DNA of 64,000 nucleotides. Source: Halomonas citrativorans (lineage in GTDB: Bacteria > Pseudomonadota > Gammaproteobacteria > Pseudomonadales > Halomonadaceae). The notes under the pieces are model-generated. The model did not search any database, was not told where the DNA came from, and saw nothing but the letters and a program-made list of their open reading frames with translations. The stretch spans positions 62,001-126,000 of the forward strand of contig NZ_FUKM01000048.1 in NCBI RefSeq assembly GCF_900163645.1, given 5' to 3'. This document shows, piece by piece, positions 32,361-36,105 of this stretch. The translations under genes were made by a program, and so were the position numbers. Each line of letters begins with the position of its first letter. Positions within the stretch are counted from its first letter, which is position 1.

Positions 32361-35108
32361 TTAGCTTAATTTGCCGCAGCACTGCTTGTACTTCTTACCT
32401 GAACCACACACACACGGATCGTTGCGGCCGACTTTCGGCCCTTCACGACGGACAGGGCGTGCGTCCTGCTCAGTGCTTTCCACATCACTGTTTTCACCGC
32501 TTAATCCGCTTTCACTGGAAGAAGCATTATCGTGACGATTCGCGGCCGCAGCTTTTTCGCGGGCCAACTCTTCACGCCGCTTTTGCTCCAGCGCATCAAC
32601 TTCTTCAGGCTGACGTACCTGAACATGGCTCAGAATACGGGTGACATCCGCTTTAATATTGGTCAGCAGGTGCTGGAACAATTCAAACGATTCACGCTTG
32701 TACTCTTGCTTGGGGTTCTTTTGTGCGTAGCCGCGTAAATGGATACCCCGACGCAGGTGATCCATCGACTGCAAGTGCTCTTTCCAACGCGTATCCAGAA
32801 CCTGAAGCATGACCTGCTTTTCAAAACGACGAATCAGGGTCGCGCCTGCGGCATCCACCTTGGCCGCATAAGCGTCACGGTGCATGTTTTGCAGACGCTC
32901 GCGCAACTTCTCTTCGCTAAATCGCTCATCATCAGCGGCCCACTGGACCACCGGGGCATCCAGGTTGAATTCTGTCTTAAGGTGCATTTCAAGCCCAGCC
33001 AAATCCCACTGCTCGGCTAGACTCTGCGGCGGAACGAAGTCGTTAATGGTGTCTTCCATGACTTCTTCACGAATACCCACGACAGCTTCTGAAATGTCAT
33101 CAGAGGCTAGAACCTCATTGCGCTGCTCGTAAATAACCCGGCGTTGGTCGTTTGCCACGTCATCATATTCAAGCAACTGCTTACGAATATCGAAGTTACG
33201 CCCTTCCACTTTCTTCTGGGCACGCTCAACAGCGTTAGATACCATTTTGTGCTCAATGGCTTCGCCGCGCTCCAGGCCCAATGCCTGCATGAGACGCTTA
33301 ACGCGGTCAGAACCAAATAGCCGCATCAGGCTATCTTCCAACGACAGGAAGAACCGCGTTGAACCTGGATCGCCCTGACGGCCAGAACGCCCACGCAACT
33401 GGTTATCAATGCGCCGAGACTCATGGCGTTCCGAACCAACAACATGCAGGCCACCGGCTTCCAGCACACCATCGTGACGCTGCTTCCACTCGGCTTTTAA
33501 TGCATCAATCTGCGCCTGGCTTGGGTTTTGTAGCTTGGCAACGTCAGCCTCCCAGTTGCCCCCCAGCATAATATCGGTACCTCGACCGGCCATGTTGGTG
33601 GCAATAGTGATCGCGCCAGGACGCCCCGCCTGGGCAATAATTTCCGCCTCACTCTGGTGCTGCTTGGCATTCAGGACATTGAACTTCAGTCCTGCTTCGC
33701 GCATCAAGTGCGCCAGATATTCAGACGTCTCGATGGACGCCGTACCTACCAGCACCGGGCGGCCTGCCTCTGTTTCGACCTGAACGTCTTTAATAATCGC
33801 CTCGTACTTCTCTTCGGCGCTAAGGTAGACCAGGTCGTTAAGGTCTTTACGGGCTAACGGGCGATTGGTGGGGATGACGATAACATCAAGCCCATAGATC
33901 TGACGGAACTCAAAGGCTTCCGTATCGGCAGTACCGGTCATGCCTGCCAGCTTTTCATACAAGCGGAAATAGTTCTGGAAGGTGGTGGATGCCAGTGTCT
34001 GGCTCTCGCGCTGAACGGTAACCCCTTCTTTGGCTTCAACAGCCTGGTGAAGTCCTTCAGACCAACGGCGACCGGGCATCGTCCGTCCAGTATGCTCATC
34101 AACGATGACCACCTGGTCTTCCACTACGATGTAATCAACATCCTTGTTGTAAAGATGGCGTGCCCGCAGCGCAGAATGCATGTGCTGCAGTAAATTCAGG
34201 TTTTGAGCGGCGTAAAGCGATTCACCCTCTTTAAGAAGGCCTTCCGCCTGCATCAACTCTTCAACCCTGTTATGCCCCTGCTCGGTCAGTTCAACCTGCT
34301 TTTGCTTCTCCTCCAGCACAAAATCGCCGGTTGCAGGTTGGTCGTCATCTTCCGAGACCTCACCCTCTTCCAACTGCTGGGCAAGCTGATTAACGACGCT
34401 ATACAGATTGGTATTTTCATCCACCGCGCCAGATATGATCAGCGGCGTACGCGCCTCATCAATCAGGATCGAATCCACCTCATCGACAATGGCATAGTGC
34501 AGGCCACGCTGCACCTTATCCTCCAAAGAGAACGCCATGTTGTCGCGAAGGTAGTCAAAGCCAAATTCGTTATTGGTACCGTAGGTAATATCACACCGAT
34601 AAGCATGGCGTTTCTCCTCCCCGGTTTGACCGGAAAAGATAACCCCAACAGAAAGCCCTAAAAACTCATACAGCGGGCGCATCCACTCGGCATCACGGCG
34701 GGCAAGGTAGTCATTGACGGTGACAACGTGTACGCCCTTTGCAGGTAGCGCATTGAGATAAACGGCCAGCGTTGCTACCAGCGTTTTACCTTCGCCGGTT
34801 TTCATTTCAGCAATACGACCACGGTGCAGGGTCATGCCCCCCACCACCTGTACATCAAAATGCCGCATACCCATGACGCGCTTACTGGCCTCTCGCACAA
34901 TCGCAAACGCAGAAGGCAACAAACTATCCAGTGCCTCGCCGTTTTCCAAGCGCAAACGCAGCTCCGCTGTCTTACCTTGTAATTCAGCGTCGCTTAATCC
35001 TTCAAACTCAGCTTCGAGCGCGTTCACACTACGAACGTTTTTGTGCATGCGCTTTACTTCACGGTCGTTCTTGGAGCCAACAACCTTGCGTAACAAATTA
35101 TTAATCAT
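32361..35108 (-). CDS. secA: Preprotein translocase ATPase SecA
   Basis: 915 residues. Motor of Sec export. Walker A is in [14 protein letters not shown], the DEAD-type box in [16 protein letters not shown]; the preprotein cross-linking, HSD and HWD regions follow, and the C-terminal zinc tail [22 protein letters not shown] binds SecB/lipid. The ATG at 35108 has GGAAA five bases before. Directly upstream lies a 115-residue ORF with SecM features (see 35195-35542), suggesting arrest-based control of secA translation. Confidence 0.97.
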
Positions 35109-35127
35109 GAAATTTCCAAATCATCTT

Positions 35128-35194: not shown

Positions 35195-35542
35195 TTAAGC
35201 GGGCGGACCGCGCTGGGTAAGCACATCACGTGCGGCTACCCGGCGCTTTATAAAGACATAAACAGGTAAAAAGTGGCGCTGCACCGCGATACGTTTAAAT
35301 CGCTGCCGCCAACCGCGCAATGCACGCCGCCTTTTGGCGATCCAATGCGATTGAGCACGTAAAATAGCCGGCACCCACAAACACACGCAGACGTGACGCT
35401 CAGCGCCCCGCATGGCATCAAAAGGCACTAAACTATTGGGCAGCAAGCAGCTTACCAGGAGCCCCGCCAGCCACCAACGCGCCAAGCCATAGCGACGGTT
35501 ACGTCGCGGCAAAGCAGAAAAGGTGTTAAGCGTGGAAGACAT
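35195..35542 (-). CDS. SecM-like secretion monitor/arrest peptide candidate
   Basis: 115 residues, no database family recognised. It starts with a positively charged stretch (RRNRR), then a hydrophobic segment about residues 24-38 (WWLAGLLVSCLLPN) that looks like a signal sequence, then a basic region, and ends QRGPPA-stop: Arg111-Gly112-Pro113-Pro114-Ala115. E. coli SecM, encoded directly upstream of secA, has a signal sequence and arrests at Arg-Ala-Gly-Pro; RAPP-type arrest peptides end in Arg-Ala-Pro-Pro. An upstream AGGAG is twelve bases from the ATG. Divergent from dciA. Function is inference. Confidence 0.7.
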   Translation of the reverse strand: MSSTLNTFSALPRRNRRYGLARWWLAGLLVSCLLPNSLVPFDAMRGAERHVCVCLWVPAILRAQSHWIAKRRRALRGWRQRFKRIAVQRHFLPVYVFIKRRVAARDVLTQRGPPA

Positions 35543-35649: not shown

Positions 35650-36105
35650 ATGAGTATAAAGGTTAAGCGTTCTCGCGCACAGCCCATCGCCCGTCTGCTA
35701 AACAAGTCAGGGGATATTGGCCAATTAATGCGTCAGTCTCGCTTGATAGATCAAGCCCAGTGTCATGTAAGAGCCCACCTGCCAGAAGAGATGCGCCCAC
35801 ATATCTTTGTCGGCGGCTTTCGCGATGGGCGCTTAACCCTGATCAGTGGACAGGCAAGCTGGCTGACATGGCTGCGCTTTGAACAGCGGCGGCTGTTGAC
35901 GCTGTTACATCAACTGCCCGGCTTTGAGGCTGTGAATGGCTTTACCTTTAAAGTGCGCCCCGTCCGCCCAGTTGAAGCACCTTTGCGTAATACCCGACAC
36001 TTGTCCGCCAGCGCGGGAAAAACGCTCAGCGAGTGCGCAAGCGACACGCACAATCCTGCGCTGCGTAAAGCGCTAGAGCGCCTTGCATCTCACGCACCAA
36101 AATAA
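35650..36105 (+). CDS. dciA: DciA-type replicative helicase loader (DUF721)
   Basis: 151 residues. The N-terminal half has the DUF721 pattern (LMRQSRLIDQAQCHVRAHLPEE, TLISGQASWLTWLRFEQRRLL). DciA is the ancestral loader of DnaB helicase in bacteria without DnaC/DnaI. The gene lies between lpxC and secA, as in Pseudomonas and Vibrio relatives. The C-terminal half looks disordered. A terminator follows. Confidence 0.88.
   Translation: MSIKVKRSRAQPIARLLNKSGDIGQLMRQSRLIDQAQCHVRAHLPEEMRPHIFVGGFRDGRLTLISGQASWLTWLRFEQRRLLTLLHQLPGFEAVNGFTFKVRPVRPVEAPLRNTRHLSASAGKTLSECASDTHNPALRKALERLASHAPK

Follow-up and report, generated by a model that had tools for sequence, protein, structure and literature searches.

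The window, by which we mean the whole 64-kb stretch of DNA analysed, carries a small open reading frame (ORF) directly upstream of secA and on the same strand. The features referred to below are the following.

35195..35542, minus strand: leader ORF, a predicted arrest peptide of 115 aa (ORF calling, homologues, Ka/Ks)
35429..35479, minus strand: hydrophobic export signal RWWLAGLLVSCLLPNSL, residues 22–38, with the invariant Cys32 at 35447-35449 (alignment)
35324..35371, minus strand: second conserved basic block, residues 58–73, consensus P..IRA.SRR.A.RR (alignment)
35201..35236, minus strand: putative arrest segment AARDVLTQRGPP, residues 103–114 (alignment)
35201-35212, minus strand: RGPP core, with the expected P-site codon, Pro113, at 35204-35206 (placement taken from the available text of PMC10987492)
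35128..35150, minus strand: local hairpin in the gap from leader to secA, kept in some members of the window's genus; an alignment of 16 genomes from that genus has two-sided changes at 3 of the 14 predicted pairs
35109..35127, minus strand: secA ribosome-binding region with a weak GGA at 35115-35117, invariant in 16 aligned genomes
32361..35108, minus strand: secA, the presumed regulated gene (Pfam match SecA)

The leader begins with ATG and ends in ...VLTQRGPPA-stop. Its N-terminus is basic and is followed by a hydrophobic segment (WWLAGLLVSCLLP), and 86 nt separate its stop from the secA ATG (35108). An initial annotation had described a 115-residue ORF with this N-terminus, hydrophobic segment, ending and distance to secA, and the sequence bears out every part of that description. 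On the 5' side lie the divergent dciA (35650-36105) and then lpxC. The 64-kb window has 239 six-frame ORFs of at least 60 aa, and among these R[GA]PP falls within the 20 C-terminal residues of the leader alone. No known RNA family was found at the leader locus.

The leader evolves as a protein. Among the 12 closest relatives of equal length that were listed, Ks is finite in 7, for which Ka/Ks is 0.11–0.19 (the other 5 have saturated Ks and were left out), and invariant residues are encoded by several synonymous codons, Cys32 for example by TGC in 90 cases and TGT in 63. Both observations contradict the idea that the ORF is spurious, or that constraint acts on a DNA or RNA element, an idea to which the shortness of the ORF and the absence of a family match had lent some appeal; we regard it as refuted, with practically no probability left to it.

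Genera and families are denoted here by arbitrary numbers assigned in this analysis (g1, f1, g29 and so on), the window's genus being g1. The family search, in which Halomonadaceae were recognized by record titles, returned a leader homologue in 253 of 275 family genomes and in 18 of 24 genera. Four of the 22 genomes without a match carry the leader on inspection (G062 in g25; G186–G188 in g32), two, both of the window's genus, are incomplete genomes (80 and 66%) that lack a SecA match as well, and the remainder belong to g35, g37, g41, and g44. A scan of species genomes gave 151 relatives; the 80 of these 151 that were listed all bear the titles Halomonas, Vreelandella, Billgrantia, Chromohalobacter, Litchfieldella, or Halovibrio. 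The host, a salt-loving bacterium, falls in the Halomonas/Vreelandella group of Halomonadaceae: its closest relatives with a name come from Halomonas and Vreelandella, with identities of up to 79%.

Regions upstream of secA were inspected at 172 loci in the family (130 distinct regions, 40 of g29, and 2 in which the pattern had missed the secA start). The leader occupies 158 of them, a gene for an M23 peptidase 13, and a broken frame one (L080); these are counts rather than rates, since most regions were chosen from matches of the family search. The M23-type loci come from five of eight g35 genomes, all six of g37, one of g41, and one of g44 (L053, L065, L067, L069, L174, L177, L191, L198, L202, L211, L212, L218, L219). 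No genuine leader was found among 85 loci from 40 other families of the order, where the gene upstream of secA is M23 in 61 cases, lpxC in 7, and neither of these in 17. Two ORFs at these 85 loci have R[GA]PP without a hydrophobic segment, and a wider pattern applied to the 70 outside loci with a recognized secA start gave one chance match of 45 aa (L133).

Among 157 family homologues the core reads RGPP in 149 and RAPP in 8, with the Arg and both Pro residues invariant. The initial annotation had named, as evidence that would count against it, homologues with neither the hydrophobic segment nor an R-x-P-P end, and on this test it stands. Because the motif served to find the ORFs, a fair test lies in the 14 motif-less family regions, and these proved to be 13 M23 peptidase genes and the single broken frame of L080.

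Individual loci showed further peculiarities. At L038 (G009), 44 residues follow RGPP and there is a 4-nt overlap between the leader stop and the secA start, which suggests translational coupling of leader and secA. Both the leader and the secA frames are broken at L080 and L082 (G265; compare L301), in a one-contig genome with an estimated completeness of 86%, and these breaks are probably assembly errors. In one of five g28 genomes (G081, locus L077), the leader frame runs into secA without a stop. We considered and rejected an in-frame leader–SecA fusion: the other four g28 genomes have the stop, and a sequence error or decay is probable at L077 because its own secA frame breaks at codon 754.

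Three blocks are conserved in the alignment of 153 leader proteins: the signal, a block at residues 58–67, and the arrest segment. The alignment leaves out L192 (wrong N-terminus), L234, L246, and L057, all four of which have the Cys when read; ORFs had been selected by R[GA]PP and a hydrophobic stretch, and the Cys played no role. Ordinary export signals conserve hydrophobicity, not sequence. The signal of the 153 aligned leaders has the consensus R-W-W-L-A-G-L-L-V-[GS]-C-L-L-P, in which Leu29, Cys32, Leu33, and Pro35 are each present in 153 of 153. A lipobox follows the pattern [LVI][ASTVI][GAS]C after a basic n-region and a short hydrophobic stretch, and a strict one surrounds Cys32 in 143 of the 153. 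The leader thus has a lipobox-like signal resembling that of a bacterial lipoprotein (type II signal peptide), with hydrophobicity that extends, unusually, beyond the Cys.

The arrest segment has the consensus A-x-D-V-L-[TS]-[RQ]-R-G-P-P. In same-length genomes of the window's genus, mean Ka is 0.045 for this segment and 0.058 for the signal, as against 0.56 for residues 76–101, which would lie largely inside the exit tunnel if the ribosome stalls. From the end of the signal to the P-site residue there are 69–78 residues in 155 of 157 homologues, the two outliers having 51 and, at L192, for which a different segment had been chosen, 23. A nascent chain under pull would require just this, a constant reach with an unconstrained sequence.

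The initial annotation had compared the ORF with SecM of E. coli and proposed a distinct class. Leader and SecM share their place before secA, an export signal, an Arg-x-x-Pro core, and an expected stall at the third core residue, as well as, in some genera of the leader's family, a likely RNA switch at the secA binding site. They differ in that no such switch is seen in the window's genus, and in that the context preceding RAGP in SecM, FxxxxWIxxxxGI, occurs neither in the leader nor in the alignment; the annotation was right that SecM's spaced Trp-Ile pattern is missing before the core. Homology with SecM was tried and rejected (BLASTP E 0.27, hhalign probability 0.1, no Pfam SecM match), and NCBIfam gave only a weak MobA match, far below cut-off. 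As judged from sequence, the proposed SecM-like placement and layout hold, and the leader would work like SecM without being homologous to it.

GTDB places Halomonadaceae in Pseudomonadales. The leader very probably belongs to a group already published, uA_RQH_Pseudomonadales (Fujiwara et al., 2024; PMC10987492), as that group is characterized in the available parts of the paper: a small same-strand ORF directly upstream of secA with an export signal and RGPP near the C-terminus. The homologues have the N-terminal hydrophobic localization segment (153 aligned), the conserved RAPP-like C-terminal motif, and a signal-to-arrest distance above 30 residues (69–78 in 155 of 157). The class is therefore distinct from SecM, as proposed, but it is not new, since the leader fits the published RQH family. 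The published representative has R109GPP, and Arg stands at position 109 in nine homologues here; Halomonadaceae are the likely source of the published group, given the absence of genuine cases from the 85 loci of 40 other families. The available text of PMC10987492 groups peptides by motif and order and describes no overall similarity among members, whereas here we are dealing with one homologous family with further conserved blocks. ApdA and ApdP, the leaders of secDF, share the R-A/G-P-P core, the expected P-site residue, and an export signal, and are set beside our leader by these features, as given in the available parts of PMC10951233 and PMC12992588; their downstream gene is secDF, that of our leader secA. 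A literature search found no published link of Halomonas with SecM or arrest peptides.

Taken as a whole, the sequence evidence makes it very likely that the leader is an intrinsic translation-arrest peptide serving as a monitor of protein export ahead of secA. The hydrophobic signal would bring the nascent chain to the Sec machinery, and the ribosome would stall with Pro113 in the P site and Pro114 in the A site. When export is working, pull on the chain would end the stall; when export is slow, the parked ribosome would alter secA expression, presumably inducing secA in this organism. The stall position, which the initial annotation had put at the same two prolines, agrees with the published RQH toeprints, in which members stall at the third motif residue (PMC10987492, available text), and with structural work on RAPP peptides, in which the A-site Pro is held so that attack is impossible (PMC10951233, available text). 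According to the same parts of PMC10987492, the R109GPP peptide of uA_RQH_Pseudomonadales stalls both E. coli and B. subtilis ribosomes, with an arrested fraction above 0.9.

The conserved core can also be read as incidental. The leader has no known family, and its two conserved N-terminal blocks are not obviously needed by an arrest peptide, so one may ask whether it is a small exported protein with some other function, in which RGPP does no more than cause a common polyproline pause that EF-P resolves. We think this quite improbable: a Pro-Pro pause alone would not require an invariant Arg and two invariant Pro, the spacing from signal to stall site is fixed, and in the available text of PMC12992588 RGPP is the most robust core and arrest by RAPP peptides resists EF-P. 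Still less probable is a stall at the stop codon itself, of the kind published for NAP-stop and NSP-stop peptides (PMC10987492, available text). The window genome, with its stop one residue after the motif, would suit such a mechanism, and to this extent the RGPPA-then-stop ending of the initial annotation stands. Across the family, however, the stretch from motif to stop is 1 to 16 residues long in 155 of 157 homologues; because this distance varies, the stop is not a conserved element, and we reject stop-codon stalling as the mechanism of the family.

For the intrinsic arrest peptide that we prefer, coupling to secA was assessed at the RNA level through the opening gain, i.e., how much less it costs to open the secA binding site when a ribosome sits on the stall codon than in the free leader. 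In the E. coli control, the opening cost falls from 7.8 to 2.8 kcal/mol (a gain of 5.0). Outside the window's genus (66 genomes), the gain averages 2.79 kcal/mol, vs. 0.56 with shuffled stall-site RNA, and it exceeds 2 in 32 genomes, vs. 8 for the shuffled control. For 51 genomes of the window's genus, gain and control are equal (0.35 vs. 0.23; above 2 in 3 vs. 1), and in the window itself the gain is negative (-0.34), as it is in a second calculation.

Co-evolution was examined by permuting stall-site RNAs within each genus. Native pairs win at the Shine-Dalgarno sequence (centre -12) in g29 (43 genomes; none of 2000 permutations did as well) and in g36 (14 genomes; family-wise p 0.004). The permutation ignores kinship, but the optima reach -2.6 and -3.6 kcal/mol in g29 and g36, respectively, and other positions only -1.0 to +0.8, a contrast that speaks against relatedness being all that lies behind the signal. 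The test was null in g42 (10 genomes), and in g31 (8 genomes) the native stall-site RNA pairs worse than swapped ones (+2.1 kcal/mol at -12). Pairing of GTCCTGA with TCAGGA explains only part of the RNA signal: among 106 genomes outside the window's genus, both hexamers occur in 9, only the first in 31, and only the second in 3 (Fisher p 0.009, uncorrected for relatedness). Consensus folding of the g36 alignment returned no pairs. In two g36 genomes with RAPP (L176, L184), the usual Shine-Dalgarno pairing is missing and another pairing, TCATTGTG with CACAATGA, was seen by eye.

A SecM-type switch is thus likely in part of the family. The proposal that stalling raises secA translation gains support from RNA co-variation in two other genera, g29 and g36; neither the window's genus nor the window itself provides such support at the RNA level. 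Since the binding-site switch is not seen there, we only infer secA coupling in the window's genus. One variant of our preferred explanation, which does not contradict it, is that the arrest peptide acts on secA in this genus otherwise than by uncovering the Shine-Dalgarno sequence, by protecting the mRNA, influencing transcription, or altering the fold just ahead of the site (-36 to -24). Besides the absent opening gain at the binding site, this variant is favored by the co-variation optimum in the window's genus (50 genomes), which lies at -24 to -36 (p 0.002), by the local hairpin situated in that region, and by a gain of 1.32 vs. 0.59 for opening -36 to -14 (50 genomes). The window itself shows no such gain at -36 to -14 (8.29 to 10.42), however, and scans of the locus for promoter-like and terminator-like sites (0 and 1 found, respectively) did not rise above shuffled sequences. 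We give the variant a serious chance, somewhat short of even.

As to origin, a SecA tree of 57 rows (quick method, SH-aLRT only) separates the 33 arrest-peptide genomes from all the others by a branch with support of 100. The M23 gene was searched for in nine genomes: the four of M23 type within the family and the single one from outside it each contain a full-length counterpart (44–54% identity, or the query itself), and the four with the arrest peptide yield only weaker matches, mostly to the C-terminal domain. A single gain of the leader inside the family, with loss of the M23 gene from the slot, would fit these sequence data best.

That the signal is conserved like the stall core, and unlike ordinary export signals, raises the idea that the sensor follows a particular export route. 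If the signal is of lipoprotein type or otherwise dedicated, the leader may report a particular route or step, e.g., lipoprotein processing, rather than bulk Sec export, and set SecA by that cue, as a monitor that arose once, within a single family, where an M23 peptidase gene had been lost. This is a tentative suggestion, and we think it unlikely to be right. The word "lipoprotein" is absent from those Chiba-group main texts that were searched, and among the literature retrieved on lipoprotein signals and arrest peptides only a review turned up. The single origin and the unusually conserved export signal look new; also new are the near-fixed spacing from signal to stall, the invariant lipobox-like Cys, and the co-variation of stall-site mRNA with the secA ribosome-binding site in two genera.

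As an arrest peptide the leader is ordinary in its class, its family can now be defined much more fully, and its signal is unusually conserved. If the reading is true, secA would be expected to respond to export capacity in most of one bacterial family, by way of a peptide that is no relative of SecM, and this same peptide would be SecM-like at the RNA level in some genera and not in the window's genus. Its diverged homologues allow stall core, signal, and mRNA switch to be separated, and the signal with its invariant Cys offers a direct way to ask whether a single export branch can be watched by an arrest peptide.
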